Part shown: positions 4,721 through 64,000 of the stretch, piece by piece | Position numbering within the stretch: the first letter of the stretch is position 1 | Layout: each line of letters begins with the position of its first letter | From: Rothia sp. P100 | GTDB lineage: Bacteria > Actinomycetota > Actinomycetes > Actinomycetales > Micrococcaceae | NCBI RefSeq assembly: GCF_023712425.1 | Contig: NZ_JAMAYG010000001.1 | Span: 372,001 to 436,000 of the forward strand | Reading direction: 5' to 3' | Length of the DNA stretch: 64,000 nucleotides | Program-made: the position numbers and the translations under genes | The notes under the pieces: generated by a model | Told to the model about the DNA's origin: nothing | Seen by the model: the letters and a program-made list of their open reading frames with translations, nothing else | Databases searched by the model: none

Positions 4721-4772
4721 ACAGAGAATAAGCGTCCTGTCTAGGGACAGCTCAGCGGCAGAAGGTAAGAAT

Positions 4773-5594
4773 CTAACGCGCCTGCTCGCGGATCCGGGCA
4801 ACGGTTTCGCCGTCAGTCGTGTTCTCACCCAGACGGTTAGGTTTGCCTGCGCCGTGGTAGTCGGATGAGCCGGTGACCAGCAGGTCGTGTTCTTTAGCTA
4901 GCTGTAGTAGCCAGGCGCGGTCTTCAGGACCGTTGTCCCGGTGGTAAATCTCTAGCCCAGCAAGACCGGCGTCTATCATGGCAAAGATCAGCTCTTCAGA
5001 CGCTACCCACCCTCGGGCTACCGCCCGGGGGTGAGCCATGACAGGAACTCCCCCGGCGGCTCGCACTAAGCTAACCGCCTGTACAGGGTCCACCGCGTAG
5101 TGAGGCACATAGTATTTGGAGCGGGCCGTCAAAATGGTTTCAAAGGCCTCGGACCGGTTAGCTACCACTCCGGCAGCTACCAGTGCATCTGCAATGTGCG
5201 GGCGTCCCACGGTAGCCCCTTCATGGGTATGATCTTGAACCGCCTCCCAGGTGAGCGGATAGTCCTCTGCCAGAAGTTGCACCATGCGCTGGGCTCTTCC
5301 CACCCTCGACTCCCTGGCCCTAGAAATTTCAGCCAGCAGAGCGGTGTCCAGAGGATCATGCATATACGACAGGAGGTGGACGCTGACTCCCTGGCCGGAA
5401 CACGAGACCTCCATACCGGGCAAAAAATCCAACCCAAAGTGTTCTGCCAGCTGCCCAGCGCGCTGCCACCCGGCGGTGGTGTCGTGGTCGGTGAGGGCGA
5501 AACCGGTCAGCCCGGTGGTAGCGATTTCACCGACTAACTCATCCAAGCTCTGGGTGCCGTCAGAAATCTGTGAGTGGGTGTGGAGGTCGTACAT
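4773..5594 (-). CDS. PHP-domain metal-dependent phosphoesterase
   Basis: 273 aa. It starts MYDLHTHSQISDG and carries the PHP metal-binding motifs HTHS (motif I), DHDT (motif II), a mid-protein His/Glu set including MAHPRAV (motif III), and GSSDYHG near the C-terminus (motif IV). Related actinobacterial and enterobacterial proteins (YciV/RNase AM-like, PHP family) hydrolyse phosphoesters such as 3',5'-nucleoside bisphosphates or short RNA 5' ends; which applies here is unknown. The frame runs 25 codons further upstream, overlapping pepP, but the ATG at 5594 is supported by the family start and by a TACAGT box 7 bases before it. It is transcribed divergently from pepP, with only 57 bases between the starts. 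Confidence 0.88.
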   Translation of the reverse strand: MYDLHTHSQISDGTQSLDELVGEIATTGLTGFALTDHDTTAGWQRAGQLAEHFGLDFLPGMEVSCSGQGVSVHLLSYMHDPLDTALLAEISRARESRVGRAQRMVQLLAEDYPLTWEAVQDHTHEGATVGRPHIADALVAAGVVANRSEAFETILTARSKYYVPHYAVDPVQAVSLVRAAGGVPVMAHPRAVARGWVASEELIFAMIDAGLAGLEIYHRDNGPEDRAWLLQLAKEHDLLVTGSSDYHGAGKPNRLGENTTDGETVARIREQAR

Positions 5595-5601
5595 ACCCTC
5601 T

Positions 5602-5607
5602 ACTGTA
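5602..5607 (-). promoter_or_regulatory. Candidate leaderless -10 box for the PHP gene
   Basis: TACAGT followed by 7 bases and the ATG at 5594. A weak -35-like TTCGCA lies about 18 bases further upstream on the minus strand. Confidence 0.5.
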
Positions 5608-5639
5608 CCGAGCACCCAAGCGGGTGCGAAACCATAGGT

Positions 5640-5645
5640 TAGAGT
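5640..5645 (+). promoter_or_regulatory. Candidate leaderless -10 box for pepP
   Basis: TAGAGT followed by 6 bases and the ATG at 5652. The intervening GGAGA could alternatively act as a ribosome binding site, so the two readings compete. Confidence 0.4.
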
Positions 5646-5651
5646 GGAGAT

Positions 5652-7196: not shown

Positions 7197-7214
7197 CCCC
7201 AGCCTAGAACCAAG

Positions 7215-7248
7215 AAGCCCCTCACGAGTTACTACTCGTGAGGGGCTT
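7215..7248. terminator. Intrinsic terminator (pepP / stress protein)
   Basis: Perfect 15-bp stem (7215-7229 with 7234-7248) with a TACT loop, GC-rich in the middle and flanked by AAG/CTTT. It lies between convergent genes and probably acts in both directions. Confidence 0.85.
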
Positions 7249-7314
7249 TGTGTTGGGAGTGCACGCGCTAACGGGCACAGGGGCGGCATTTACCAGCAGA
7301 TTGACGGCGGCATC

Positions 7315-8250
7315 CTAGCTTTCTGGGCTGCCATCGTCCTTTTTCGGTGCAGGAGCGGGTGCCTGGCGAATGGTTTTCTCAAACTCTGCCTCATCCTCCA
7401 CGCGGATTCCGTAGCGTGACTCGCTCTGCTGGGCACGTACCTGCTCCACCCGTTCATTGGTGGTGGCGGGAGCGGGCTGCTCACGAATCTGTTGCTCAAA
7501 CTGCTGAGGGTTGTCGATACGCAGACCGAACTTACCGGCGGCTCTTGACCCGTCCTTGTTGGTTTCAGCCGGTGGGGTGAAAACCGGAGTGGGCGCTTCG
7601 ACCTGTCCGTGAGCAGGCTGAGGTGCTGCTAGTGAGCCCGCGGGCACGGAAGTGGCGTGAGGGTGCTGGGCTGGTGCTACCGGCTGCCCAGGAGCTTGGT
7701 CGTGAGGTGCCTGCTGATGGGGCATCTGCTGGTGGTGATGCTGGGCGGGCTGGTGAGGCTGGCCCTGCAGAGGAACGCGCAGCAGATGACGCGCGGCGGC
7801 AGCTGTAGCGGGGATAGCCATGAGGTCTAGGCGAGTCGGCAGCATCTGGGTGCGGGTGCGAATCCCCTTTCCCTTAGCTCGGGAAGCAACCAGGATGGAC
7901 CAGATGATGCAGAAGGCAATCGCCAGTGGAACGATGCTCAGAATGTTGGCGAGCATGGAGGTTTGGGTAAGAATCGAGTTGAAAACACCTACCATGATGC
8001 CTAGCATGATGCCCTGTAGTGCACCGTTCAGGGCGGCTCGGGGGTAGGTTGCCTGGCCGGTGACGTAGTCCACCTGCTTGACGTCATGACCCACGATGAA
8101 GAGGCTGTGCACGGGGAACTTTTGGCTTGCCAGAAATTCGACCGCCTTGTTAAGTTCTTTGCGGTCAGAAAAAGTTGCCACAAGTTCACCGGGCGGGATG
8201 TTCGAGCCGTCTGCCATGGTGAGGGCCGGGGGTGCTTTCAGTTGGTCCAT
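7315..8250 (-). CDS. General-stress-type membrane protein with disordered, repeat-bearing tail
   Basis: 311 aa from the ATG at 8250, preceded by GGGGGA; the frame extends upstream past the divergent gene but that part looks non-coding. The N-terminal part (about residues 20-65, ATFSDRKELNKAVEFL, then FIVGHDVKQVDYVTG) resembles the YflT/general-stress-protein domain. Two hydrophobic helices follow (about 72-95 and 100-123). The C-terminal half is His/Gln/Pro/Ala-rich and probably disordered, and ends in two copies of a ~22-residue motif of form (K/R)(F/Y)G(L/I)R..(N/E)..(Q/E)FE..IR..PAP, near residues 240 and 279. Molecular function is unknown; a membrane-tethered stress or adaptor role is inference only. 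It is divergent from the MgtE-N gene. Confidence 0.75.
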   Translation of the reverse strand: MDQLKAPPALTMADGSNIPPGELVATFSDRKELNKAVEFLASQKFPVHSLFIVGHDVKQVDYVTGQATYPRAALNGALQGIMLGIMVGVFNSILTQTSMLANILSIVPLAIAFCIIWSILVASRAKGKGIRTRTQMLPTRLDLMAIPATAAAARHLLRVPLQGQPHQPAQHHHQQMPHQQAPHDQAPGQPVAPAQHPHATSVPAGSLAAPQPAHGQVEAPTPVFTPPAETNKDGSRAAGKFGLRIDNPQQFEQQIREQPAPATTNERVEQVRAQQSESRYGIRVEDEAEFEKTIRQAPAPAPKKDDGSPES

Positions 8251-8427
8251 TCCCCCATTTTCTCTTACTCTGCTGACAGCTTGCTGGATGGGCGGTGCTT
8301 TATCGCCCCTGGTGAACGCAGAGGTGCTCCTGGGCGGGACGAGAGCACTGGCGTCCTTGCTGCCTCGGAAAGAGGAAAGGACGGCTGTCACAGCGGGTGC
8401 GGCGTAGCGGGGCGTTGTAAAGGCTAG

Positions 8428-8433
8428 TACGCT
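8428..8433 (+). promoter_or_regulatory. Candidate leaderless -10 box for the MgtE-N gene
   Basis: TACGCT followed by 8 bases and the GTG at 8442. No Shine-Dalgarno is visible. Confidence 0.4.
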
Positions 8434-8441
8434 TAGAAACT

Positions 8442-9749
8442 GTGAGTACTGCACCGAATAAGATTTTTATTGCCCGCCTTCTTGGTCTGGATGTCTTTGA
8501 CCCGCACGGTGACCGTTTAGGCCGCTTGCGGGATGTTGTGGTGCTTAAACACGGTTTCACGCAGTTCTCAGCGGTGGGTTCCCTGGGCAAGCTCAAAGAG
8601 CCGGTGGTTGTGGGTATCGTGATTGAGATTTTGGGCAAAAAACGTATTTTTGTGCCCATGACGCGCGTGACCAGCATCGATTCCACCCAAATTATTCTGA
8701 CGGGTCTGGTGAACCTGCGCCGTTTTGAGCAACGCGGTTCAGAAGCCCTGGTCGTCGGTGAACTTTTTGACCGTAAGGTGCAGTTGCGGGACGGCTCTGG
8801 CAGAGCCCAGATTGAGGACGTTGCGATGGAGCAACGCCGCAATGGTGACTGGTTCATTTCTGAACTTTTCGTCTCCCGCGGGCACAACACGCTGATGCGC
8901 CGCCGTAAAGAAACCCTCATTATCGACTGGCATGAAGCTATCCTTTCCACCGATTTTGAGCCCCAGGCAGCCACTGCATTCGTGGCAAGCCATGAGGACT
9001 CCAACCCCGCTGACCTTGCGGATGCCATCCACGAGATGAACAAAAAGCGCAAGGTAGAGGTAGCCCAAGAGCTACAAGATGAACGCCTAGCGGACGTCTT
9101 GCAGGAGCTACCCGAGGACGATCAGGTAGAGATTCTCTCCCACCTTGAGGTAGAGCGCGCGGTCAACGTGCTGGAAGAAATGGAACCCGATGACGCCGCT
9201 GACTTGCTCAGCGAACTCTCTGATCAGCAGCGTGAAGAGTTGCTGACCCTCATGGACCCTGATGATTCCGATGACGTGCGCCGTCTGCTCGAATATGAGG
9301 AGGGCACCGCCGGTTCGTTGATGAACCCCGTACCTATTGTGCTCTCCCCCGAAGCTACTGTTGCCGAGGCACTAGCGCACATTCGCCAAGAGGAAATTTC
9401 CCCTGCCTTGGCCGCTGCCGTTATGGTGGCGCGTCCACCCCTAGAAACTCCCACCGGCAAGTACCTGGGTCTGGTGCATATGCAGCGTTTGTTGCGCCAT
9501 TCCCCCAGCGAGCAGGTGGGCAACATTTTGGATACTTCAATTGAGGCAGTCAACGATGCCGCCAGCATCGAGGAAGTCTCCCGTGTGCTGGCAACCTATG
9601 ACCTTACCATCGTGCCGGTAGTTAATGAGTTTGACCGCCTGGTCGGAGCTGTCACGGTGGATGACGTGCTCGATGAGATGCTGCCCGATGACTGGCGCAC
9701 CTATGATGATGGGACCCCGATCCGAAAGGTAGGCCGACGCTTTGAGTGA
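8442..9749 (+). CDS. Soluble PRC-barrel / MgtE N-terminal / CBS protein (no channel domain)
   Basis: 435 aa, GTG start. Order: a PRC-barrel-like N-terminus (FIARLLGLDVFDPHG) and a second beta-rich segment up to about residue 165; an MgtE intracellular N-domain with superhelical repeats (ADVLQELPEDDQVEIL, AVNVLEEMEPDDAADLL, LMDPDDSDDVRRLL); then a CBS pair (about 285-425). The transmembrane MgtE pore domain is absent, so this cannot be a channel by itself. The same architecture is conserved in actinobacteria next to DUF1003 and mrp genes. A Mg2+- or nucleotide-sensing regulator is a reasonable inference. Its stop overlaps the next gene's start by 8 bases, so the two are translationally coupled. 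Confidence 0.85.
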   Translation: MSTAPNKIFIARLLGLDVFDPHGDRLGRLRDVVVLKHGFTQFSAVGSLGKLKEPVVVGIVIEILGKKRIFVPMTRVTSIDSTQIILTGLVNLRRFEQRGSEALVVGELFDRKVQLRDGSGRAQIEDVAMEQRRNGDWFISELFVSRGHNTLMRRRKETLIIDWHEAILSTDFEPQAATAFVASHEDSNPADLADAIHEMNKKRKVEVAQELQDERLADVLQELPEDDQVEILSHLEVERAVNVLEEMEPDDAADLLSELSDQQREELLTLMDPDDSDDVRRLLEYEEGTAGSLMNPVPIVLSPEATVAEALAHIRQEEISPALAAAVMVARPPLETPTGKYLGLVHMQRLLRHSPSEQVGNILDTSIEAVNDAASIEEVSRVLATYDLTIVPVVNEFDRLVGAVTVDDVLDEMLPDDWRTYDDGTPIRKVGRRFE

Positions 9750-10440
9750 TGCACGCCCTTCGCTAGATACCGCGCAGACTCTGGGCACCCCCCAAGAGAA
9801 AAAGCGGCGCAGGTTCTTCTTGGCCAACCCCAACCCGGATGCCTTCGGTCAGATGACCGAAAAAATTGCCCGTTTCATGGGCACCCCGCAGTTCCTACTG
9901 TGGATGACCGTTTTCTGTGCCGTCTGGTTGGGCTGGAATACCCTGGCACCCGAGGAAATGCAGTTTGACCCTCGGGCACTGAACTTCACTCTGCTCACCC
10001 TCATGCTCTCCCTGCAGGCCTCCTATGCCGCGCCTCTGCTGCTTCTAGCGCAGAACCGGCAGGACGACCGCGACCGCGTGGTCTCTAAACAGGACCGCCA
10101 GCGCGACCAGCAGAACCTGGAAGAAACTGAGTACCTGACCCGCGAAATTGCTTCCCTGCGCATCACTTTGCGTGAGGTAGCCACCCGCGACTTCGTGCGC
10201 AGTGAAATGCGAGATTTGATGGACGAAATTCAAGAGGTTCAAAAACGCCAGGAAGAGCTCTTTGCCCGCGCTGAGCATCTGGCACGCGGCCTGGATGAGA
10301 GCGACCACGAAATGGAGCTCCCGGACTTTGACCCCAACTCAGCCAACCCTTCCACCAGCGCTTTTGACTTGCTGAGTGAACACCGCCCTAAGAACCGTAA
10401 GAAGAAGATGGTGAAGGATATCGACGGCTCACCTGAGTAG
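9742..10440 (+). CDS. DUF1003 membrane protein
   Basis: 232 aa, TTG start inside the end of the preceding gene (8-base overlap). Two hydrophobic segments (about residues 52-72, QFLLWMTVFCAVWLGWNTL, and 85-105, with LQASYAAPLLLLAQNRQDDRD) define the DUF1003 domain. They are followed by a long charged, coiled-coil-like helix (about 110-185) and an acidic/basic tail. The role is unknown. The coupling to the MgtE-N/CBS protein suggests the pair forms a membrane-associated complex; that is inference. A 14-base gap separates it from mrp. Confidence 0.85.
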   Translation: MSDARPSLDTAQTLGTPQEKKRRRFFLANPNPDAFGQMTEKIARFMGTPQFLLWMTVFCAVWLGWNTLAPEEMQFDPRALNFTLLTLMLSLQASYAAPLLLLAQNRQDDRDRVVSKQDRQRDQQNLEETEYLTREIASLRITLREVATRDFVRSEMRDLMDEIQEVQKRQEELFARAEHLARGLDESDHEMELPDFDPNSANPSTSAFDLLSEHRPKNRKKKMVKDIDGSPE

Positions 10441-10454
10441 TCGGCCCCGTAAAC

Positions 10455-11588
10455 ATGACTGAACAGACCCCCGATACCTCTCTTAACAGCGCTCTAGCCA
10501 CGGTCATTGACCCGGAGCTGCGTCTACCCATTACCGAGCTGGGTATGGTGGAAACTTCCCAGGTGGATGGCACCACCGCTCGAGTAAAAATCCTGCTCAC
10601 CATCGAGGGGTGCCCGCTCAAGAACACCATCGAAGCGGACGTGCGGGAAGCCGTTGGTCGGGTTGCCGAGATAGAGCACCTGGATCTTGAAATCGGTTAT
10701 ATGAGTGCCGACCAGCGTTCCGAATTGCGTCAGCGTCTGGGGCATACCAAAGCTAACCCTTTTATCGCGCCGGAATCCCTCACCCGCATTTTTGCTGTCG
10801 CCTCCGGCAAGGGCGGTGTTGGTAAATCCTCAGCAACCGCCAACCTGGCAGCAGCCTTTGCCTCGGCCGGGCTGAGCGTCGGCATCATCGACGCCGATGT
10901 GCACGGTTTCTCTATCCCCGGCCTACTGGGCCTGGTCGAAGGTCCCACCCGCATGGATGACATGATCATCCCCCCGGTCGTTGAAGCACCCACCGGCAAC
11001 GGTCATATCAAAGTCATCTCAATCGGCATGTTCGTAGCCGCAGATCAACCGGTGGCCTGGCGTGGTCCCATGCTTCACCGAGCCCTGGAACAGTTCTTGA
11101 CTGACGTCCATTTCGGCGCTCTGGACATCCTCCTCCTGGACCTGCCTCCCGGCACCGGGGATGTCGCCATCTCGATGGCACAGCTACTCCCCCATGCAGA
11201 AATCCTGCTGGTTTCAACCCCGCAACATGCCGCTGTGGACGTTGCCCAGCGCGCTGGTACCCTCAGCCTTCAAACCCAGCAGAAAGTGACCGGCGTTATC
11301 GAGAACATGGCAGCTATGACCCTGCCCGATGGCTCCACTATGGCTCTTTTCGGTGAGGGCGGCGGCCAAATCCTGGTTGATTCCCTGGGCAAAGCCCTGG
11401 GCTACCCCGTGCCGCTCCTGGGATCTATCCCCTTGGATATGGCACTGCGCGAGGGCGGGGACGCTGGTACCCCGGTGGTCTGGTCGGCACCAGAAACTAA
11501 GGCAGCAGCTGTCTTCACCGATATCGCAACTCAGCTAACCCACCGCCCCCGCGGGCTGGCCGGGAAGCCCCTGCCCTTCAACGTCTAA
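10455..11588 (+). CDS. mrp: Mrp/ApbC-type P-loop ATPase (Fe-S carrier family)
   Basis: 377 aa. An N-terminal DUF59/MIP18 domain (about residues 8-85, containing the single cysteine, in IEGCPLK) precedes the Mrp/NBP35 P-loop domain with deviant Walker A ASGKGGVGKSS (about 115-126) and Walker B LLLDLPPGTGD. Family members carry and transfer Fe-S clusters to apo-proteins in the cytoplasm. The CxxC that binds the bridging cluster in ApbC/Mrp is missing: the equivalent region after VIENM reads AAMTLPDGSTMALFG, with no Cys. Function as a cluster carrier is therefore less certain. It is last in the MgtE-N/DUF1003/mrp operon and is followed by a terminator. Confidence 0.9.
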   Translation: MTEQTPDTSLNSALATVIDPELRLPITELGMVETSQVDGTTARVKILLTIEGCPLKNTIEADVREAVGRVAEIEHLDLEIGYMSADQRSELRQRLGHTKANPFIAPESLTRIFAVASGKGGVGKSSATANLAAAFASAGLSVGIIDADVHGFSIPGLLGLVEGPTRMDDMIIPPVVEAPTGNGHIKVISIGMFVAADQPVAWRGPMLHRALEQFLTDVHFGALDILLLDLPPGTGDVAISMAQLLPHAEILLVSTPQHAAVDVAQRAGTLSLQTQQKVTGVIENMAAMTLPDGSTMALFGEGGGQILVDSLGKALGYPVPLLGSIPLDMALREGGDAGTPVVWSAPETKAAAVFTDIATQLTHRPRGLAGKPLPFNV

Positions 11589-54210: not shown

Positions 54211-54243
54211 AGCAGGGGCTGCGGCGGCGTCCTTCCACCTGCT
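54211..54243. terminator. Weak hairpin between convergent genes
   Basis: AGCAGG/CCTGCT (54211-54216 with 54238-54243) with a GC-rich interior and no U-tract. It is the only candidate terminator in the 77-base gap between the lipoate ligase and the YdcZ-type gene. Confidence 0.3.
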
Positions 54244-54264
54244 GGGAACTTCACCCGCAGTACG

Positions 54265-55212
54265 TTAGGTGAGGCGAATGAGTGCAACACCGGCCAGCAT
54301 AACCGCGATACCGGCAGCCTGCAGGACGGTCACAGGGCGACGGGGAGCCTCGAAGATTCCGAACTTATCAACGATGAGTGAGGCAGTCACCATGCCGGTC
54401 AATGCGGCCATAATGGTAGAGCCTGCACCGAGAATGGGCACGAAAAGGGCGTTAAAGGTGACGAAGATGGCGCCTAGCGGGCCGCCTACCCACATCCAAA
54501 GCGGATTGGCAGTTTTACCGCCTGGCACCCTCACTCTAAATTTGAGGCGGAGCGCCAAGGCAATGAACAGTAATACCAAGGTGCCTACTGTAAAAGAAAC
54601 GAGAGCAGCCTTCAGCCCGGAACCGATGAGGGTGCCCAGACTCGCGTTGATGGGTGACTGCATGGCCATGAGAAAACCCGAGAAAATAGCCAAAGCCTGC
54701 CACCCCAGCTGACTGCCAGGTGAGGTCGCTCCCTGTTGCTGCGTACCACTAGCCGGTGCCTTGGCGCGGCGTCCTAGCAAAACAGCAGCGAACACACCAG
54801 TCAAAACCAGAGCAGCCCCGATACTTCTGAAGGGGGTCAGGGAGGTCTGAGGTGCGTGAAAGAGACCGAACTGGTCGATGATGAGGCCCATGAGGATTTG
54901 CCCGGTGATGGGCAGGATGACGGACTGCACCCCGCCCAATTTGGGAAAGATAAAGATATTGGTGGTAAGACCGATGACGCCCAGCAGGCCGCCGGTCCAA
55001 ATCCAAAAGGGTTGTCCGCTCACGTCCTCCGGGGAAAACCAGAAGTGGCCCTCAACAACCGTGGAGAGAAAGAGCAGGAAGAGCGTACCACCGATGAAGG
55101 ACGCCAAAGATGAGAGGAAAGGGGAACCTACAGACTCCCGCAACCTGGAATTAAAGGTGGTTTGAATGGGAAGCAAAGCCCCACCCAGAATCATGAGGGG
55201 CAAAGCGAACAT
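54265..55212 (-). CDS. DMT-superfamily transporter, duplicated YdcZ/DUF606 type
   Basis: 315 aa, about ten helices arranged as two similar halves (about residues 1-145 and 170-315). Both halves carry the DUF606 pattern: an N-terminal helix with a P-x-x-x-x-N motif (LPIQTTFNSRL and MQSPINASLGTLIGSGL), then FWIWTGGLLGVIGLTTNIF in one and LWMWVGGPLGAIFVTFNAL in the other, and finally GLIIDQFGLF or ASLIVDKFGIF. The halves are joined by a charged linker. Many bacteria encode the halves as separate small genes, so this is a fused version. The substrate is unknown. Divergent from the UvrA-like gene. Confidence 0.85.
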   Translation of the reverse strand: MFALPLMILGGALLPIQTTFNSRLRESVGSPFLSSLASFIGGTLFLLFLSTVVEGHFWFSPEDVSGQPFWIWTGGLLGVIGLTTNIFIFPKLGGVQSVILPITGQILMGLIIDQFGLFHAPQTSLTPFRSIGAALVLTGVFAAVLLGRRAKAPASGTQQQGATSPGSQLGWQALAIFSGFLMAMQSPINASLGTLIGSGLKAALVSFTVGTLVLLFIALALRLKFRVRVPGGKTANPLWMWVGGPLGAIFVTFNALFVPILGAGSTIMAALTGMVTASLIVDKFGIFEAPRRPVTVLQAAGIAVMLAGVALIRLT

Positions 55213-55311
55213 GCGGTAGTCAACTTTCTAGGTCTAGAGGACGTTTAGCATTTTACTCTTGTTCGCTAAACTTGAGCCTAATCAAACTCGCACCACCCTA
55301 GAGGGGCAGAA

Positions 55312-57699
55312 TTGTCGCATCCCGCAGATACGCACCAGGTTATTCGTATTACCGGTGCCCGCAATAACAATCTGAAGAACGTCACGGTTGAAATCCCTAA
55401 GCGCCGTTTGACGGTCTTCACCGGTATCTCGGGGTCGGGTAAAAGCTCCCTCGCGTTTGGTGTGGTGGCAGCTGAGTCACAGCGCCTGATCAATGAAACG
55501 TACTCAGCCTTTGTGCAGGGTTTCATGCCCCACCAGGACCGCCCCGACGTTGACTCAATTGAAGGGCTGACCAGCGCCATCATTGTGGACCAGGAACGCC
55601 TGGGCGCCAATCCGCGCTCAACCGTGGGTACAGCCACCGACGCTCTACCCATGCTGCGTATGCTCTTTGCCCGCGTCGGCTCCCCCAACCTTGGTTCCCC
55701 TACCGCTTTTAGTTTCAACCAGGCATCGGTACAGGCAACCGGTGCCCGCAAGGTAGGCAACGGCAAGGTGGAGCATGTTACCTTCTCTCGCGCCGGCGGC
55801 ATGTGCCCCCGCTGTGAAGGCCTGGGTAGAACCAGCGACATCAACATGGCGGAGCTTTTTGATGAAAACCTCACCCTAGAAGACGACCTTTTCACCATTC
55901 CCGGCTACAACGCCGGAGGCTGGAACGTGCGCCTCTATAAGGAAAGCGGGCTCTTTCCCGCCGACGTGCCCATCAAAGATTTCACCGAGCAGCAGCGGGA
56001 GGACTTCCTCTATAAAGAGGCAACCCGCATGAAAATTGCCGGTATCAATATGACCTATGAGGGCCTCATCCCCCGCCTGCAAAAGTCGGTGCTCAGCAAG
56101 GACGCCGAGGGGCTACAGCCGCACGTGCGTGCCTTCGTCGAGCGCGCGGTGACCTTTGTGGATTGTCCCGATTGTGGAGGCTCCCGCCTCTCTCAGGCAG
56201 CTCTTGAATCTAAGGTAGCTGGCAAGAACATCGCCGAGTTGAGCGATATGCAGGTCTCAGATCTGCTGACCTGGGTAAAGGAGCTGAATGAGCCCTCTGT
56301 GGCTCCACTGGTTGCTAGTCTTGAACACCTGCTGCAGTCTATGGTCACCATCGGCCTGGGCTATATCGCGCTCTCCCGTTCGGCGTCCTCTCTTTCAGGC
56401 GGCGAGGCGCAGCGCGCCAAGATGGTACGCCACCTGGGCTCCCCGCTCACTGACGTCACCTACGTTTTTGATGAACCCACCGCAGGGCTGCACCCCCACG
56501 ATGTGGCAAAAATGAACCAACTGCTCCTGGCCCTGCGCGACCGCGGCAACACCGTGCTGGTGGTTGAACATAAACCAGAAACCATTGCGGTAGCAGACCA
56601 CATTATTGATATGGGCCCGCTAGCCGGTTCAGGCGGTGGCACCGTGGTCTTTGAAGGTAGCTACGACAATCTGCGCGCAGCTGACACCGTGACCTCCCGC
56701 CACCTCTTTGACCGTCAGGGCCTCAAAGGTAGCGTCCGCACGCCGACCGGCGTCCTCACCGTCAAGGACGCCCAGCGCAACAACCTGCGTTCGGTCAGCG
56801 TTGACCTGCCGACCGGCGTACTGACCACCTTGACCGGAGTAGCTGGCTCGGGTAAGTCCTCCCTGATTGCTGAGTTCTTCAGCCAGCACGAGGGCAGTGA
56901 AGAGCGCATTATCTTTATCGACCAGTCAGCCATCAAGGGCTCGCTCCGCTCTAATCCCGCCACCTACACCGGGCTGCTAGAGCCCATCCGCAAGGCCTTC
57001 GCCAAGGCCAACAGAGTAAAGCCCGCTCTCTTCTCTGCAAATTCTGAGGGCGCCTGCCCCGAATGTAAGGGCACCGGTGTCATCGAAACCCAGCTGGGCT
57101 TCATGGAAAAATCAACCGCCACCTGTGAAGCCTGCGAAGGCAAGCGCTTTAGCCCTGCCGTGCTGGAATACACATTTGGCGGCAAGAACATCAGCCAGGT
57201 GCTCACTCTGCCGGTCGCTGAAGCACTCACCTTCTTCACCAGCTCGGAGGGCAAGATTCCCGCCGTCGCCAAGATTCTCAAGCGCCTATCAGACGTTGGC
57301 CTGGGCTACCTTACCCTGGGCCAGCCACTCTCTACTCTGTCAGGTGGTGAACGCCAGCGCATCAAACTGGCAACCCATATGGCTGAACCGGGCGGAATCT
57401 ACATCTTTGATGAGCCAACAACCGGCCTGCACCTGGCTGATATCGAGCAGTTCTTGGGTCTGCTAGATCAGCTGGTGGACGGTGGAACCACCGTCATTTG
57501 CGTGGAGCATCACCAGGCTGTGGTAGCTCACTCCGATCATGTGATCGATGTAGGCCCCGGAGCAGGTCACGACGGCGGCACCATCGTTTTTGAAGGCACC
57601 CCGGCACAGCTTGCCCTAGCCACAACCCTGACTGCTCAGCATTTAGCCGCTTATCTCCCACCCACAGAAAACGAGCGCCAAAACCTGCCCGCCTTTTAA
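55312..57699 (+). CDS. UvrA-like ABC protein lacking the UvrB-binding region
   Basis: 795 aa, TTG start after GAGGGG. Two ABC domains: Walker A GSGKSS at Lys44 and Lys515, signatures LSGGEAQRAKM and LSGGERQRIKLA. The stretch between the first Walker A and CPRCEGLG (Cys165) is about 100 residues shorter than in UvrA, so the UvrB-interaction region and part of the first zinc module are gone; the second zinc module (CPECKG, then CEACEGKRF) is kept. This is the class II UvrA/DrrC-like group, often linked to drug tolerance. Two TetR genes follow on the same strand. Confidence 0.88.
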   Translation: MSHPADTHQVIRITGARNNNLKNVTVEIPKRRLTVFTGISGSGKSSLAFGVVAAESQRLINETYSAFVQGFMPHQDRPDVDSIEGLTSAIIVDQERLGANPRSTVGTATDALPMLRMLFARVGSPNLGSPTAFSFNQASVQATGARKVGNGKVEHVTFSRAGGMCPRCEGLGRTSDINMAELFDENLTLEDDLFTIPGYNAGGWNVRLYKESGLFPADVPIKDFTEQQREDFLYKEATRMKIAGINMTYEGLIPRLQKSVLSKDAEGLQPHVRAFVERAVTFVDCPDCGGSRLSQAALESKVAGKNIAELSDMQVSDLLTWVKELNEPSVAPLVASLEHLLQSMVTIGLGYIALSRSASSLSGGEAQRAKMVRHLGSPLTDVTYVFDEPTAGLHPHDVAKMNQLLLALRDRGNTVLVVEHKPETIAVADHIIDMGPLAGSGGGTVVFEGSYDNLRAADTVTSRHLFDRQGLKGSVRTPTGVLTVKDAQRNNLRSVSVDLPTGVLTTLTGVAGSGKSSLIAEFFSQHEGSEERIIFIDQSAIKGSLRSNPATYTGLLEPIRKAFAKANRVKPALFSANSEGACPECKGTGVIETQLGFMEKSTATCEACEGKRFSPAVLEYTFGGKNISQVLTLPVAEALTFFTSSEGKIPAVAKILKRLSDVGLGYLTLGQPLSTLSGGERQRIKLATHMAEPGGIYIFDEPTTGLHLADIEQFLGLLDQLVDGGTTVICVEHHQAVVAHSDHVIDVGPGAGHDGGTIVFEGTPAQLALATTLTAQHLAAYLPPTENERQNLPAF

Positions 57700-57782
57700 A
57701 GCCCACCAACGTTCATATATTCACAAGAAAAAGAGAGTTTTTATTAACACACAAAATGAAGTTTTTAGCGCATCACTAAGAT

Positions 57783-58379
57783 GTGCCAAAATTCATTAAC
57801 CATCAAGAACGTAAACAGCACATAGCTCAGGCGGTATGGGCTGTTCTGGCGCGCGAGGGCGTTCGTGGCGTTTCTGTCCGGACTGTGGCAGCAGAAGCCG
57901 GTATCTCAACAGGCTCCCTGCGCCATGTTTTTCCCACCCTGAACGATATGATGCTCTACTCCCTTGATTACAGCGGTCAAAAATTTTTGGCATCGCTCAC
58001 CAGCCGGAAGGTCACCGGCCCCCTCATCGATCACCTTGAGGATTTGCTGTTCGACTTTTTACCCACGAGCAACGAAAGCCGCATGTACTCTGAGGTGGTA
58101 GTTGGCATGCTGGCAGAAGCATCTAACATCCCGGGTGCTGCGCGCATGCTTCAGCAGCAGGAAACCGAGCTGTCCTACACTTACAGTTTTATTCTGAGCC
58201 AGCTGAAAGCTCACGGGCGCATCAGATCAGATATCGACGTTCAGTATGAAACTGATACCCTTGTCTCGCTTTTGTTCGGGGTACATGTCTCCTACATGCT
58301 CTCTGACCAAACAGCCTCTGACCAGGAGCTGCAGGCGCCACTTAAGATGCATCTCGCGTCCTTAAAGAACACTGACTAG
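57783..58379 (+). CDS. TetR-family regulator 1
   Basis: 198 aa, GTG start. The N-terminal TetR helix-turn-helix reads GVRGVSVRTVAAEAGISTGSL followed by RHVF (about residues 25-50). The C-terminal ligand-binding helices are divergent. It opens MPKFINHQERK, closely paralleled by the next gene's MPKLIDHTERK, so the two are tandem paralogues. It lies 83 AT-rich bases after the UvrA-like gene; the ligand is unknown. Confidence 0.88.
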   Translation: MPKFINHQERKQHIAQAVWAVLAREGVRGVSVRTVAAEAGISTGSLRHVFPTLNDMMLYSLDYSGQKFLASLTSRKVTGPLIDHLEDLLFDFLPTSNESRMYSEVVVGMLAEASNIPGAARMLQQQETELSYTYSFILSQLKAHGRIRSDIDVQYETDTLVSLLFGVHVSYMLSDQTASDQELQAPLKMHLASLKNTD

Positions 58380-58396
58380 AACCCAAGGAACCTCTT

Positions 58397-59077
58397 GTGC
58401 CTAAACTTATCGATCACACAGAACGTAAAGAGTTTCTCTCAGCAGCAGTGTGGAAGCTCCTTGATGAGCATGGAGTCAGTGCCATTTCAATCAGAAACGT
58501 AGCTGCTGAAGCGGGTATTTCGGCGGGTTCTTTGCGGCACTCTTTTAAAAGTCGGCTGGATTTACTCGAGTACGCGCTGCAACTTTTGACGGATCGTATT
58601 CAAGAGAACGTGAGAGCCCGGGCTAGAGACGGTCTCACTGTTGATGGTGCCGTGAGGATTCTAGAGTTTCAGATTCCTCTTATTCCTGCCACTGAAACCT
58701 ACGCACGGGTGATGATGGGCATGATCGCCGAGATGAGATCCACCCCTGAGCTACGGAAAATTGCCCACCGCAGTCTTCAGCAGCTTCGCATCACCTATCA
58801 TGACATGTTCGCCTGGCTGGAGCGCGCTGGGGAGCTCAAACCGGGCACGGACGCTGCAGCGCAGGCTGATCAATTGCTGATTTTAGGCCAAGGTATCACC
58901 GCCAAAACAATTTTAGATGGGCGACGCTCTGAGCCGGTAGATTTGAGCCGAGCCTTTAGAACCCACCTTAATATGGTTCTGGTTCACCCGGTGCCCTATC
59001 TAACCGAGGAAGAAATCGCTGAGCTGACTAAAGAACTCGCCAGGTATCGCAGCACTTCTTCCTCGTCGGTCCATTGA
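58397..59077 (+). CDS. TetR-family regulator 2
   Basis: 226 aa, GTG start with AAGGAA upstream, 17 bases after regulator 1. HTH: GVSAISIRNVAAEAGISAGSL then RHSF. It has a similar DNA-recognition helix to regulator 1 but a longer C-terminal domain ending in a Ser-rich tail. The near-identical recognition helices suggest both act on related operators, possibly as a pair controlling the UvrA-like gene or themselves (inference). Confidence 0.88.
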   Translation: MPKLIDHTERKEFLSAAVWKLLDEHGVSAISIRNVAAEAGISAGSLRHSFKSRLDLLEYALQLLTDRIQENVRARARDGLTVDGAVRILEFQIPLIPATETYARVMMGMIAEMRSTPELRKIAHRSLQQLRITYHDMFAWLERAGELKPGTDAAAQADQLLILGQGITAKTILDGRRSEPVDLSRAFRTHLNMVLVHPVPYLTEEEIAELTKELARYRSTSSSSVH

Positions 59078-59194
59078 CGCAGAACGTAGCCGCAGATATA
59101 AAAACGCCGTCCTGAACCTAATTGGGTCTGGGAGCGGAGTTTATTGTTCTGTCGGTATGTTCGCTTCTACTATGGCAGAAATACACAGATGAAA

Positions 59195-59237
59195 AACCGC
59201 CCCTACCAACGCTTAGCAACGCGGGCAGGGGCGGGTT
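59195..59237 (-). terminator. Terminator of the YtxH-like gene
   Basis: AACC.GCCCCT pairs with AGGGGCGGGTT (one bulge) around a 22-base loop with its own small CGTTG/CAACG stem. On the minus strand it is followed by TTTTTCATC. Confidence 0.7.
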
Positions 59238-59257
59238 ACTAAACCTCACACAAAGGC

Positions 59258-59626
59258 TTAAGAGACGGCGGGGCCTTCAGCCTCAGGTGCAGTTGCGGGG
59301 TCTGAAATGACGTCAGCGGGAGCGTCCTTGACTGCCTTCTCAGCAGCCTTTTCAACCTTGTGCTCTGCTCGAGTTTCTTTGACCTCTTCGACCTTAGCCT
59401 TGGTCTTGTCAGCTGCAGTGGCAGCTGCTTCCTTAGCCTTTTCAGCTACAACAGGAGCCTTTTCCTTGATGGTCTCTTCGGTAGCCTTGATGCCTTCTTG
59501 CACCTTGGGGTCGTGCCAGACGTTGGTGGCCTGGGTCTTGATCTTTTCGTAGCTTTCGCGGCCTGCGCGAGCGCCCAGAACATAGCCGATGCCGATGCCA
59601 GCTACTAGTGCGATACGTGCTCTCAT
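59258..59626 (-). CDS. YtxH-like membrane-anchored helical protein
   Basis: 122 aa from the ATG at 59626, which has AAAGGTGG 5 bases upstream (a GTG three codons earlier is less likely). A short N-terminal helix MRARIALVAGIGIGYVLGARAGR anchors it, with the family's GYVLGARAGRE. The rest is an Ala/Lys/Glu-rich amphipathic helix with apolipoprotein-like 11-residue character, then an acidic tail. The role is unknown; the family is common in actinobacteria and often stress-linked. It is monocistronic. Confidence 0.8.
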   Translation of the reverse strand: MRARIALVAGIGIGYVLGARAGRESYEKIKTQATNVWHDPKVQEGIKATEETIKEKAPVVAEKAKEAAATAADKTKAKVEEVKETRAEHKVEKAAEKAVKDAPADVISDPATAPEAEGPAVS

Positions 59627-59676
59627 GATGTCCACCTTTACGGTTGCTAATAGTGCTGACTACATAATACGCCTAC

Positions 59677-60207
59677 TTAGGGCACTGAGGTAGGTGACAC
59701 ACCGGCCGTTGGTTTTGTGGCGGTTGCATAGCGCCCGGTAATCCCGTCAATCAGGAGGCGGTGACTTCGGGTTTCGGCATACCAGTTGGGCTTCCATACG
59801 GCCTCTTGAACATGCTCAAGTAAAAACTCGAAGCTTGCAGCAAGCCTGTAGTGCTTAAGAAATTGTACGTAAGCTGCCTCTTGCGCGATTTTCACCAGCT
59901 GCTGACGCTCTACATCATCCAAGGGCTCTTCTTGCACCAGGTCAGAATCTACTGGTTCGCTCGAGAGGTTCCAATCATCCGAAGTCCAAGCTCTGCGAGT
60001 GCGGGGGTCTACGAGCACACGAATAAGCTGGCCATTTAGCCGGCGTGAAGGCCCTTTGGGCGACGATACCCTGAACACCACACCTGTAAGCCGGTAATAG
60101 CTGGGCTCAAGTGTTCGCGTCCAATCCTTTTCAGGGAAGACCTTTTGAGCTAGCTCAAGAGCTTCGTGGTAGGTCACCGACGCTTTAATAGCCTTCTGCT
60201 GTGGCAC
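59677..60207 (-). CDS. Unrecognised 176-aa protein in the symporter operon
   Basis: 176 aa, GTG start 5 bases after the symporter stop, with its ribosome site (GGTGGG/GTAGAG) within that stop region, so it is co-translated. It is soluble, with no transmembrane segment. It has YHEALELAQKVFPEKDW, then YYRLTGVVFRVSSPKGPSRRL and ends with RSHRLLIDGITGRYATA. I do not recognise the family. The tight coupling suggests a partner of the symporter or of the substrate's metabolism. Confidence 0.78.
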   Translation of the reverse strand: MPQQKAIKASVTYHEALELAQKVFPEKDWTRTLEPSYYRLTGVVFRVSSPKGPSRRLNGQLIRVLVDPRTRRAWTSDDWNLSSEPVDSDLVQEEPLDDVERQQLVKIAQEAAYVQFLKHYRLAASFEFLLEHVQEAVWKPNWYAETRSHRLLIDGITGRYATATKPTAGVSPTSVP

Positions 60208-60212
60208 GGTCT

Positions 60213-61751
60213 CTACCCACCTTCCGGCATCTGGGCCGACAGGTCAATGTCTTCCTTGACATCCCGAGTTGAGCGGGTGCTAGTGACGCTAGCAGCGCTA
60301 TCAATGGCGTCCAAAATATGCGCTGAGACTGGGTGTGATTTTTGGGTGAGAAGCGATCCAACAATCATTGCCACCGTTGAACAGACGATACCTATCAGCA
60401 TGGGGTCCAGCCCAGTTACCGCCCCCAAGTCTCCAAGCTTCCACACAACAGAGACCGAGCTACCTACCAGCATGCTGGCAAGGGCACCCACCTTATTAGC
60501 TTTTCTCCACCAGACTGCGCATATATAAGCAGGGGCAAAGGCTGCACCGAGCACAGTTGCCGCGAAAGTAGCGAGGAAGAGGACGGACGGGGGCTGAAGC
60601 AACGCCATCGTCAGACCTCCCAGTGCCATAACTAATACGGTGATTCGCGAAACCTTCACCAGGGTATTTTCAGAGACCTCTTTGAGGAAGAAGCGCCCAA
60701 CAAGGTCACGAGAAGCGATGGTTGAAGCCTGGAGTAGCAGGGCATCAGCGGTAGACATAATTGCGGCCATCACCGCAGCCATAACAATACCTACAGCGAA
60801 GCTCGGCAATACAGTTTTTGCAACCTCAAAAATAGCTTGTTCAGGGGCTGCCAGGTTAGGCACCACGATGAGGGCAAGAAGACCGACCAGGTAGGGAGCG
60901 GGGATAAAGAGTAAGTTGAAGGCGGTTGAATAAACGCCGGCCATGCGCGATACCGAAGGCTTTTTCATTGCCATATGGGATACAACAACATGGGGCCAGC
61001 CCATGTAACCAATCGAGAAGATCAGAAGGGCACCAATAATCAATCCCCACTGATTCTGATATTCAAGGTCAGCACCAAACATGGTGAGCAGGTTGGGGTT
61101 GATGGCTTCAATCTGCTGGTGGCCGGCGGTCAGGCCCCCTACTGCCTGCAAGGTGGCGATAAGAATCCAGACCATGCCAATCAACATGATGATGGCCTGG
61201 ACGAAGTCGGTGTAGGCGACAGCAAGGTAGCCACCGAGGAAGGTGTAGGAGACAATCACCGCTACCGCGATGACAAGGGCAATATCGAAGCTTATACCGG
61301 TCACAGAGGCCAACCCGGCACCACCTGCGATGAACTGGCTCATCAGGTAGAGAAAGAGACCACCCAGAGCCAAGATGGATGCAACCATTCTCACGGCTGA
61401 AGACTGGTAGCGATTTTCAAGGTACTCAATGGAGGAAATTGATCCCAGAATCTTGGTGAGCTTACGCATGCGTCGGCCGATAATAGAGAGGTTGAGGACG
61501 CCGCCGCCCAAATCACCCAGGGCGTACCACATACCAAAGTAACCCGATGAGTACCCGAGAGAGCCAGCTCCAGCGAACATATAGCCCGACATCGAGGAGG
61601 ACTGCAAACGCAAGGCTGTCACTGCTGGGCCCAAGGAGCGTCCGGCAAGGAGGAAATCTTCTGAGTCATTACCGGACTTTTTCATCGCCCAGATTCCGAT
61701 CAGAATCATAGCGAGAAAGTAGATGATGAGGAATGCTACTGCAATGTTCAC
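60213..61751 (-). CDS. Sodium:solute symporter (SSS family)
   Basis: 512 aa, GTG start with GAGGAGG 10 bases upstream, overlapping the stop of a 40-aa gene. About 13 helices of the LeuT-like fold; DFLLAGRSLGPAVTALRL at TM1 and the SSS signature with SIGYMGWPHVVVSHMAMKK and MAAIMSTADALLLQAST (Na2-site helix). It is nearest in flavour to proline/pantothenate-type SSS transporters. The substrate is unknown; a nearby class III aminotransferase and mmsA remnant hint at an omega-amino acid or amine (inference). Confidence 0.9.
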   Translation of the reverse strand: MNIAVAFLIIYFLAMILIGIWAMKKSGNDSEDFLLAGRSLGPAVTALRLQSSSMSGYMFAGAGSLGYSSGYFGMWYALGDLGGGVLNLSIIGRRMRKLTKILGSISSIEYLENRYQSSAVRMVASILALGGLFLYLMSQFIAGGAGLASVTGISFDIALVIAVAVIVSYTFLGGYLAVAYTDFVQAIIMLIGMVWILIATLQAVGGLTAGHQQIEAINPNLLTMFGADLEYQNQWGLIIGALLIFSIGYMGWPHVVVSHMAMKKPSVSRMAGVYSTAFNLLFIPAPYLVGLLALIVVPNLAAPEQAIFEVAKTVLPSFAVGIVMAAVMAAIMSTADALLLQASTIASRDLVGRFFLKEVSENTLVKVSRITVLVMALGGLTMALLQPPSVLFLATFAATVLGAAFAPAYICAVWWRKANKVGALASMLVGSSVSVVWKLGDLGAVTGLDPMLIGIVCSTVAMIVGSLLTQKSHPVSAHILDAIDSAASVTSTRSTRDVKEDIDLSAQMPEGG

Positions 61752-61754
61752 AGC

Positions 61755-61877
61755 CTAATCCTCCTCATCCGCGTTAGCCCAGTCTCGGGTCATAAAGTAG
61801 AACCCTGCGGTGTATATAATCCAGAACAGTGGAATAACGGTCATCACTAGGACGGTAAACCCTGGTAATCCAAACAT
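61755..61877 (-). CDS. Small symporter accessory protein (40 aa)
   Basis: ATG at 61877, GAAAGGG 7 bases upstream, 40 codons, stop 3 bases before the symporter start. The protein starts MFGLPGF, has one hydrophobic helix (about residues 7-28: VLVMTVIPLFWIIYTAGFYF) and ends in an acidic ADEED. Small single-helix proteins of this kind are a known companion of SSS symporters in many bacteria, presumably helping assembly or stability. It is short enough to be missed by gene finders. The stop region provides the symporter's ribosome site. Confidence 0.8.
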   Translation of the reverse strand: MFGLPGFTVLVMTVIPLFWIIYTAGFYFMTRDWANADEED

Positions 61878-62203
61878 TTCAAACCCTTTCCGTCTGAGCC
61901 TGTAGGCCATTTACGAAACAACCCCATACTTTGAGGCATGGAACACATTGCTGTACTTACTAGTGTTGTGGACAAAGCCTCATTGCTCAATTATCAAAAC
62001 GTTCTCTTTAGACGGTAATAGATAACAGAGTGTTGCCGGCAGGAATCCTACCTTCGGAACGCTACTGAACTGAATCTACTTTAATAAAAATAAACACCCT
62101 AATCTCCCCGCTGCCCCGTTCTTCTCAAGAACGGGGCAGAGCGTGGTGATAGATATTCAATGCTCTGTAGATGAGAATGAGGCTTTATTCCTTTGCTAAG
62201 GTA
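61878..62203. other. 326-base intergenic region between symporter and aminotransferase genes
   Basis: No credible coding frame on either strand. It must hold the promoter of the leftward symporter operon and the end of the leftward aminotransferase gene. The part near 62078-62097 is AT-rich (AATAAAAATAAA). The only strong structure is the hairpin at 62111-62139. Confidence 0.6.
62111..62139 (-). terminator. Hairpin after the aminotransferase gene
   Basis: Perfect 13-bp stem CTGCCCCGTTCTT/AAGAACGGGGCAG (62111-62123 with 62127-62139) and CTC loop, 65 bases after the stop. There is no U-tract on the minus strand. Confidence 0.7.
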
Positions 62204-63508
62204 TTAGTTTTTCTCATCTAGTTCGGCAAGAGCGGCGTCATAAACATCCAAGCCCCGCACCAGTTCCTCCTCCGAAATCACCAGCGGTGGAGCAACGTGC
62301 ACCCTGTTAAAGTGCACGAAGGGCCACACGCCGTTCTGCTTGCAGTAACCCGCAAAATCATTCATCGGAGCAGCATCGGCACCAGAGGCGTTGAAGGGCA
62401 CGAGAGGTTCCCTCGTTTCCCTATCTTTGACCAGTTCGATAGCCCAGAAAAGCCCCAGCCCACGAACCTCACCTACAATGCTGTATTTCTCTTTCATCTC
62501 CTCGAGCCGGGGACGCACCACCCTCTCACCCAGGTCACGCACCCGATCAAGAATCCTGTCCTCATCAAAAATTTTGAGGGTCTCTAAACCTGGGGCACAA
62601 GCCAAAGGATGACCTGAATAGGTCAGCCCACCTGGGTAAGCCGTCGTAGACCAGGTCCTCTGGATTTCCTTGGAAATAATGACCCCGCCCAGAGGAACGT
62701 AACCAGAGTTCACTCCCTTAGCGAAGGTGATGAGGTCAGGCACAACCCCAAAGTTTTCAACAGCAAAAAGAGTGCCTGTGCGCCCGAAACCGGCCATGAC
62801 TTCATCGGCAATATAGACAATGCCGTACTTGTCACACAGCGCGCGTACCCCTGGCAGGTAACCCTCAGGTGGTACCAGAATTCCATTGGTGCCTACCACT
62901 GTTTCCAAGATAATGGCTGCAATGGTCTGAGATCCCTCAAGAATAATCTGCTGCTCCAGATGAGCCAAGGAACGCTCACATTCCTGCCTCTCATCTTCCG
63001 ACCAGAATGCTGAACGGTAAGTGTAAGGACCAAAGAAATGCACCACCGAGGAATCCGAAGGTTCATTTGCCCAACGTCGCGGGTCGCCTGTCAAAGAAAT
63101 CGCGGTAGAGGTCGCTCCGTGATAGGAGCGGTAGGCTGACATCACCTTTCGCCGCCCAGTGTAGCCCCGCGCCATGCGCACGGCGTTCTCGTTAGCTTCT
63201 GCTCCACCATTGGTGAAAAATACTGAACCGAAGCTCTCCCCCGCCCGCTCCACTATCTCTTGAGCAAGTTGACTACGGGTGTCATTTTTGAAGGAAGGCT
63301 GGATGGTGACCAGTCGATCTGCCTGATCTTTGATGGATTGAATCAACCGCTGGTTGCCATGCCCTAGAGCTAGATTAACCAGTTGGGATGAAAAATCAAG
63401 GTAGTCTCGGCCCTGGTCATCGGTGAAGGTAGAGCCCTGACCAGAAACCACGTTGACAGGGTCAATGAGGTCCTGAGCTGACCAAGAGTGAAAGACGTTG
63501 CCGTCCAT
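62204..63508 (-). CDS. Class III PLP aminotransferase
   Basis: 434 aa. Fold type I, class III: FTNGGAEANENAVRMAR, YRSYHGATSTAISLTG, the PLP-contacting IADEVMAGFGRTG, and TFAKGVNSGYVPLGG with the Schiff-base Lys. Family members move amino groups from omega-amino acids (beta-alanine, GABA, taurine, 3-aminoisobutyrate) to pyruvate or 2-oxoglutarate. A neighbouring methylmalonate-semialdehyde dehydrogenase, here broken, is the usual partner for beta-alanine or valine/thymine catabolism, so beta-alanine/3-aminoisobutyrate is favoured. It lies leftward of, and in the same direction as, the remnant. Confidence 0.9.
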   Translation of the reverse strand: MDGNVFHSWSAQDLIDPVNVVSGQGSTFTDDQGRDYLDFSSQLVNLALGHGNQRLIQSIKDQADRLVTIQPSFKNDTRSQLAQEIVERAGESFGSVFFTNGGAEANENAVRMARGYTGRRKVMSAYRSYHGATSTAISLTGDPRRWANEPSDSSVVHFFGPYTYRSAFWSEDERQECERSLAHLEQQIILEGSQTIAAIILETVVGTNGILVPPEGYLPGVRALCDKYGIVYIADEVMAGFGRTGTLFAVENFGVVPDLITFAKGVNSGYVPLGGVIISKEIQRTWSTTAYPGGLTYSGHPLACAPGLETLKIFDEDRILDRVRDLGERVVRPRLEEMKEKYSIVGEVRGLGLFWAIELVKDRETREPLVPFNASGADAAPMNDFAGYCKQNGVWPFVHFNRVHVAPPLVISEEELVRGLDVYDAALAELDEKN

Positions 63509-63542
63509 AAGTGTTACTCCTTATCTGTGCTAATGAGCAAAG

Positions 63543-63845
63543 TTAGTTGGTTGGGAAGCCCAGATTAATTTGGGACTCACTCGCCAGCGGCCACCTCTGC
63601 GTGACGACCTTACGGCGGGTATAGAAATTAAAAGCTTCTGGGCCGTAAATGTGGGTGTCCCCAAACAAGGAGTCTTTCCACCCACCAAAGGAGAAGGCCC
63701 CGATAGGTACAGGGATGGGGACGTTAATGCCGACCATGCCAACCTCAATGTTGAACTCAAATTCTCTGGCGGTACGGCCATCACGAGTGAAGACAATAGC
63801 GGCGTCCGCTGCCGCATCAAAATCAGCATCAGGCATAACCGCCAT
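63543..63845 (-). pseudogene. mmsA: Remnant of CoA-acylating methylmalonate-semialdehyde dehydrogenase
   Basis: A 100-codon frame encodes two widely separated pieces of the ~500-aa enzyme joined in frame. First [14 protein letters not shown], which in intact enzymes lies before the catalytic Cys near mid-protein. Then directly [13 protein letters not shown] and [13 protein letters not shown] through [10 protein letters not shown] to the C-terminus ([13 protein letters not shown]). About 140 residues between these, including the catalytic Cys segment, are missing. A stop (TAG at 63863-63861) and no family sequence upstream mean the N-terminal half is gone as well. It cannot be active. It is 34 bases upstream of the aminotransferase gene start, so the pair was probably an operon. 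Confidence 0.8.
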
Positions 63846-63863
63846 ACAGCTATCGAATTTCTA

Positions 63864-64000
63864 GTGGCCACCGGCGCTAGGGGGCCCGTTGACTTAAGTT
63901 CTGCCCTGCACAGAATGAGCGCTCTGAACGCTCAGATTCCTGAGACCGGGGTTGCTTTGCGACGGGCTGACCGAAACCAGTTCGATGGTCTAGTGAACTA
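63864..64000 (+). CDS. Possible 5' part of a plus-strand gene running off the window (doubtful)
   Basis: A plus-strand frame is open from upstream of a GTG at 63864 to the window end (about 45 codons), with possible starts there or at the ATG at 63915. The predicted start VATGARGPVDLSS and MSALNAQIPETG do not match a family I know. It would be divergent from the mmsA remnant. It may be a regulator, a rearrangement partner, or chance. Confidence 0.22.
   Translation, partial: MATGARGPVDLSSALHRMSALNAQIPETGVALRRADRNQFDGLVN

Follow-up and report, generated by a model that had tools for sequence, protein, structure and literature searches.

What has become of the gene upstream of an intact aminotransferase gene in Rothia sp. 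P100? The window, by which we mean the whole 64,000-nucleotide stretch that was analysed (G000:C11:372001-436000), comes from a 2.40-Mb genome in 20 contigs and lies on a contig of 1.07 Mb. At one end of it, the aminotransferase gene is preceded on the same strand by an open reading frame of 100 codons that resembles only the tail of a (methyl)malonate-semialdehyde dehydrogenase (MMSDH). The features in question, in window coordinates, are these:

60213..61751 (-), sodium:solute symporter, 512 aa, PF00474
62204..63508 (-), class-III aminotransferase, 434 aa, intact, second gene of the former operon
63543..63845 (-), open reading frame of 100 codons from ATG to TAA, 100 aa
63543..63795 (-), MMSDH C-terminal remnant, matching the 496-codon Rothia endophytica gene from the final base of codon 413 through its stop
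63796..63846 (-), 51-bp mmsA island, beginning at codon 256 and reaching the second base of codon 272, with one further base shared with the second join
63846..64000 (+), continuing past the window to 64277, 3' remnant of a PucR-type regulator gene, codons 396-538

Taken as a whole, the locus is very probably the remnant of a catabolic unit in which a PucR-type regulator gene stood divergent from an MMSDH-aminotransferase pair, and which was disabled by deletions.

The remnant dehydrogenase frame

The 100-aa product covers only profile positions 408-477 of 477 (the last 70) of the MMSDH model TIGR01722; it scores 107.5 bits, well below the curated cut-off of 448.5. Its Pfam Aldedh match is the tail alone (positions 395-461 of 461). 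The preliminary description had read the frame as a VMPDAD segment joined directly to a FTRDGR segment, with about 140 residues and the catalytic Cys skipped and the N-terminus absent, and this reading holds throughout: the join is present in the frame, 141 codons are gone together with Cys283, and a second missing stretch removed codons 1-255. Cys283 belongs to the GERCM motif, whose Cys we take to be the catalytic residue of MMSDH; it falls within the 423 bp that are absent, so the remnant lacks it. By sequence comparison the frame is what is left of a gene for a predicted CoA-acylating MMSDH, and it cannot yield a working dehydrogenase.

The intact unit of Rothia endophytica

R. endophytica 56QC2O2 (NZ_CAKMSJ010000001.1, here L042) carries the unit intact at the same place and in the same gene order, and with it the whole dehydrogenase gene, so that the alignment with a relative proposed in the preliminary description finds its counterpart. 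A second record of this unit (G007:C1) is 100% identical over 3368 bases, has the same length of 465,910 and is evidently the same contig. The positions in L042 are as follows:

4599-9305, the unit as a whole: PucR-type regulator gene, divergent from the MMSDH and aminotransferase genes, intact
4599-6215, PucR-type regulator, divergent from MMSDH, 538 codons
6476-7966, MMSDH, 496 codons counted from MTTLT (longest open reading 542)
9759-11297, sodium:solute symporter, next to the unit as in Rothia sp. P100

The intact MMSDH scores 635.4 bits on TIGR01722. What remains in Rothia sp. P100 is very close to this unit: the aminotransferase is 99% identical, the MMSDH tail (window 63543-63795 against L042 7714-7966) has 252 of 253 bases equal with one mismatch, the island (window 63796-63846 against L042 7290-7240) has 49 of 51 equal with two mismatches (96%), and the pucR remnant is 97% identical over 432 bases (L042 4599-5030). 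The regulator remnant comprises 143 codons, whose product is 98.6% identical to that of R. endophytica and retains the C-terminal PucR helix-turn-helix domain (PF13556, 49.9 bits against a cut-off of 27). The difference is that the unit is whole in R. endophytica, whereas Rothia sp. P100 lacks 423 bp and 2209 bp of it.

The two species also differ beyond the unit. In R. endophytica (G007:C1), a methyltransferase-like gene has 247 bp of its sequence in two copies about 8.8 kb apart, and an island of DNA seems to have entered the gene; in Rothia sp. P100 this gene is whole (247 codons; window coordinates 64616-64862, L003 6616-6862). Just to the right of the broken operon is a variable site: about 10 kb (window coordinates ~65671-76043) matched nothing on the same strand when compared with 120 kb of R. 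endophytica, which has about 11 kb of other DNA at that place. On the other side of the operon, within the window, two tandem genes for TetR-type regulators with a BetI-like C-terminal domain (57783-59077; 198 and 226 aa) encode proteins whose first 50 residues are alike by eye.

Two missing stretches and their joins

When the window and its continuation are aligned to L042 base by base, they fall into three collinear pieces: positions up to 63795 correspond to L042 down to 7714, 63796-63846 to 7290-7240, and 63846 onward to 5030 downward. The first missing stretch is thus 423 bp (L042 7291-7713), or 141 codons, in frame. The second is 2209 bp (L042 5031-7239), which held MMSDH codons 1-255 (minus the last base), pucR codons 1-395 and the intergenic region between these divergent genes, so that mmsA codon 256 now adjoins codon 396 of the divergent pucR. 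The in-frame loss inside the dehydrogenase gene had therefore been described correctly, but it is not the only one: there is a second, larger loss, which also took the intergenic region and most of the regulator. It could not be seen in the window, because most of the pucR gene lies beyond its end.

When the missing 2.7 kb were sought across the whole assembly, three matches were returned, namely the 51-bp island (96%) and two paralogues (65 and 66%), and the missing DNA was found nowhere beyond these. A close relative whose orthologue is whole and sits at this very position, together with a missing segment that was not found elsewhere in the assembly, is the picture of a deletion pseudogene. 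Illegitimate deletion would have removed the 423 bp and the 2.2 kb with the 51-bp island left between them, and would so have taken the N-terminal and catalytic parts of the dehydrogenase, the intergenic region and most of the regulator. One observation counts against the deletion reading: the island has two differences from R. endophytica, both non-synonymous, and none that is synonymous.

The join at 63795/63796, where 423 bp are absent, has no shared bases, and that at 63846, where 2209 bp are absent, has one. We rejected direct repeats as the cause of the losses, with nothing longer than 1 bp exactly at the joins; the 423-bp stretch has the motif GA[C/T]AGCGG close to each of its ends, but the join is not located on it. 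Nor is Ku-based end joining a likely route: a search of the genome with PF02735 gave no match for Ku (the same search matched in 1 of 14 control genomes, B. subtilis). Since Ku appears to be lacking, replication slippage, alternative end joining or template switching would be likelier routes than classical nonhomologous end joining.

Did one event or two produce this arrangement? In a single complex event, a replication fork would have jumped from pucR to about 51 bp of mmsA and from there to the mmsA tail, with the island as filler. We regard this as a real, if somewhat doubtful, possibility. The joins are only 51 bp apart and share 0 and 1 bases, the lack of a Ku match makes the classical route improbable, and the island has changed at 2 of 51 bases against 1 of 253 in the tail. 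On the other hand, the island keeps the ancestral order and orientation, as it also would after two plain deletions, and no genome was found to carry one loss but lack the other. The fork jump is a variant of the deletion reading and no alternative to it; in a single genome the two look alike.

Age of the loss

How long ago did these deletions occur? The PucR remnant differs from R. endophytica at 13 bases in 143 codons, 11 of the changes being synonymous and 2 non-synonymous (dN 0.006, dS 0.108), and the MMSDH tail has a single difference in 83 codons, which is synonymous. Over the codon-assigned remnants, synonymous changes account for 12 of 15 differences, as expected if most of them arose under selection, and the loss would thus be young against the split from R. 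endophytica. We reject an old loss on this synonymous excess, and the loss of the MMSDH and regulator DNA looks recent, as the preliminary description had proposed. That proposal had pointed to a nearly perfect C-terminus. The sequence itself is as stated, but its fresh look partly reflects a recent exchange, because the whole of 54.2-63.8 kb is unusually close to R. endophytica: window 54216-63795 (9.6 kb) has 98.1% identity, whereas single kilobases of the first 54 kb range from 86 to 98%. The region seems to be a recombination tract, lately exchanged or shared between the lineages. It is not the only near-identical stretch: one at 77-79 kb on the Rothia sp. P100 side reaches 98.6-99.8%.

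Paralogues and the fate of the pathway

Another mmsA copy, which had been suggested as something to look for, does exist; in fact there are two full-length MMSDH genes:

C14:231102-232532, in an inositol (iol) cluster
C11:1015133-1016566, in a valine-like cluster, near acyl-CoA-dehydrogenase-like and 3-hydroxyisobutyrate-dehydrogenase-like genes

Neighbour gene names here are readings of translations. The two proteins score 667.9 and 652.5 bits on TIGR01722 (cut-off 448.5), and their identity to the lost MMSDH is 52% and 53%. The broken gene is not the valine-type mmsA; loss of a valine-type gene can be dismissed, since a full-length MMSDH is present in the valine-like cluster. The claim that the pathway had lost its second step does not follow either, as the two intact paralogues might serve that step. 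Because two full MMSDH genes remain, the chemistry need not be lost, and it is possible that the aminotransferase feeds another dehydrogenase. The loss may be tolerated in one of two ways: the substrate is unused, or a paralogue covers the step.

The genus contains a second, independent MMSDH remnant, a 98-codon frame in another genome (L135, G028:C4:98001-118000, at 10738-11034). It matches residues 400-495 only, at 49% to the R. endophytica protein; by eye it is nearly the same as the tail of the valine-type MMSDH of Rothia sp. P100, and it lies beside an enoyl-CoA-hydratase-like gene.

Which substrate did the unit serve? In the ancestral arrangement (L042), a class-III aminotransferase and an MMSDH are adjacent on one strand, as in beta-alanine operons. 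By analogy, the ancestral substrate may have been beta-alanine or a related omega-amino acid, with a route to malonate semialdehyde and then acetyl-CoA. This assignment is tentative, because the aminotransferase matches an uncharacterised subfamily (NF004718 / PRK06062 'hypothetical protein'; cut-off 472, score 678.8 bits) and the full-length regulator of R. endophytica resembles PmfR only weakly (37.8 bits; cut-off 800).

The orphan aminotransferase

The aminotransferase, of 434 aa, is intact, as had been described. The AAGGAG motif upstream of it is kept. The operon promoter presumably went with the deleted DNA, and the aminotransferase is probably left without promoter and regulator. It is likely to be unexpressed or read through, because the larger loss took the upstream region with the presumed promoter and the regulator; it would now be silent or driven by read-through.

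Could it still be expressed, by read-through from two upstream genes or from a new promoter, and now feed the valine-type MMSDH or IolA? We consider this rather unlikely, although it is compatible with the deletion reading. In its favour, the gene is intact and has diverged from R. endophytica with dN 0.005 and dS 0.062, and the genes at window coordinates 64378-65644 run in the same direction. In the part of the source available (PMC6572756), MMSDH paralogues are described as substituting for each other in Cupriavidus necator, where all three had to be removed to stop 3-hydroxypropionate use, and other such enzymes are said to take both substrates. However, the old operon no longer has its upstream region, and the constraint may simply predate the loss. 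A scan of window coordinates 63300-65200 gave no sigma-70-like match on the aminotransferase strand; the one promoter-like site is on the other strand (shuffle mean 1.3). Terminator-like sites in the same stretch number 6 against 1.7 in shuffles (sd 1.3), on both strands and with stems of 5-6 pairs, and three weak stems face the read-through direction (63798-63815 and 63698-63714, two of them overlapping). In the intact unit of R. endophytica, the scan likewise gave no sigma-70-like match on the MMSDH strand, so that such scans are no proof of promoter loss; it gave 1 promoter-like site on the pucR strand (shuffles 0.7) and 0 terminator-like sites (shuffles 0.7). Nor need paralogues interchange: the accessible part of PMC4907197 describes the dehydrogenase of Pseudomonas sp. 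AAC as selective for malonate semialdehyde.

Distribution and origin of the unit

For neighbour counts, we kept the best 80 of 198 aminotransferase loci. An MMSDH was counted as adjacent if it had at least 50% identity and ended at most 400 bp upstream of the aminotransferase on the same strand; a divergent regulator was counted if a PucR-type gene lay at most 500 bp from the MMSDH. By these rules, an MMSDH adjoins the aminotransferase in 64 of these 80 loci, L042 included, and a divergent PucR-type gene stands beside it in 56. One of the 16 loci with no adjacent MMSDH (L046) begins at a contig end; among the 8 with MMSDH but no PucR by the rule, L065 and L068 hit a contig end, and in L053, L081 and L111 a PucR match is present in the locus beyond the distance limit. 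The symporter lies near the aminotransferase in just 2 of the best 80 loci (one of them R. endophytica, the other with 28% identity), and we treat it as a neighbour of the unit and not as a demonstrated member of the operon.

Within the genus, pucR-MMSDH DNA at a minimum of 95% identity was found in 2 of 35 genomes, Rothia sp. P100 and R. endophytica (up to eight first-look candidates were scored per genome, and two genomes are 65-72% complete). Because a search of the 34 other genomes turned up the intact unit, at no less than 95%, in a single one, the direction of change, loss in Rothia sp. P100, rests on R. endophytica and on the wider synteny. Aminotransferases at 53-56% occur in eight other genomes of the genus, and one at 47% in a further genome; in about 1.5 kb on each side of the eight, no MMSDH or PucR match (E 1e-5) was found.

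A dehydrogenase tree of 63 rows was built from 61 of the 64 adjacent MMSDH proteins and the two paralogues of Rothia sp. P100, whose long branches make their placement unsure; an adjacent protein was admitted if a single aligned stretch was longer than 400 residues with a minimum of 50% identity, a rule that excluded L065, L068 and L081. In this tree the MMSDH of R. endophytica is paired with Corynebacterium flavescens (100/100), inside a group of four rows that also contains two further Corynebacterium (100/99); it does not join the two Arthrobacter rows, which belong to its own family. This placement suggests that the unit was probably gained horizontally from Corynebacterium-like bacteria. 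A gain before the two Rothia lineages split, or by one of them that then passed it on, followed by the later loss here, would fit best. A fuller history can be imagined, in which a small Rothia lineage gained the Corynebacterium-like unit, a single template jump with a 51-bp filler then disabled it in one species (no Ku gene was found), and the orphan aminotransferase was re-wired to the valine-type MMSDH or IolA; as a complete chain we hold this to be improbable.

Two further explanations fare worse. That both joins are assembly artefacts and the strain has an intact unit is very unlikely: the genome was assembled in 20 contigs and the joins are known from the assembly alone, but a false join would have no repeat to explain it (0 and 1 shared bases), the missing 2.7 kb are not on another contig, the locus is inside a contig of 1.07 Mb, and two errors 51 bp apart would be needed. 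Hardly credible is the idea of a 100-aa product that is still made and serves some separate purpose, for example as an oligomerising fragment. The frame does stay open and its MMSDH tail has no non-synonymous change, but a single difference over 253 bases is insufficient evidence of constraint since the deletion. The original start and ribosome-binding site of the gene have been lost, and by eye nothing like AGGAG stands in the 30 bases before the ATG.

Comparison with known systems

The case is one of ordinary, apparently fresh operon decay in an accessory catabolic unit, and it is readable to the base: an enzyme, its control region and its regulator were lost together while two paralogues of the enzyme were kept. 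It carries two warnings for annotation. On the one hand, an intact aminotransferase does not imply a working pathway; on the other hand, a broken 'mmsA' does not imply lost valine breakdown.

The titles and abstract starts among the listed matches of a literature search on R. endophytica mention nothing on this locus. In Corynebacterium flavescens CCUG 28791T (L043), the same three-gene arrangement is found as in R. endophytica, with proteins 85% (MMSDH), 77% (aminotransferase) and 54% (PucR-type regulator) identical; the matches are full-length there, and the host belongs to another bacterial family. Identity of the R. endophytica unit to Arthrobacter is lower, at 64-66% (best 80 of 198 loci). 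In C. necator H16, as far as the available part of PMC6572756 describes it, a role in beta-alanine use is proposed for aptA-mmsA1 and one in valine use for mmsA3; here too a transaminase gene stands beside a (methyl)malonate-semialdehyde dehydrogenase gene and further MMSDH paralogues are present in the genome, but the regulator proposed for mmsA1 is of the MocR type, whereas that of the Rothia unit is of the PucR type. The same pairing is described in Pseudomonas sp. AAC, whose KES23458-KES23460 operon encodes a transaminase and a dehydrogenase and, according to the accessible part of PMC4907197, converts beta-alanine to acetyl-CoA. What sets Rothia sp. P100 apart from both of these operons, as so described, is that its dehydrogenase is broken.
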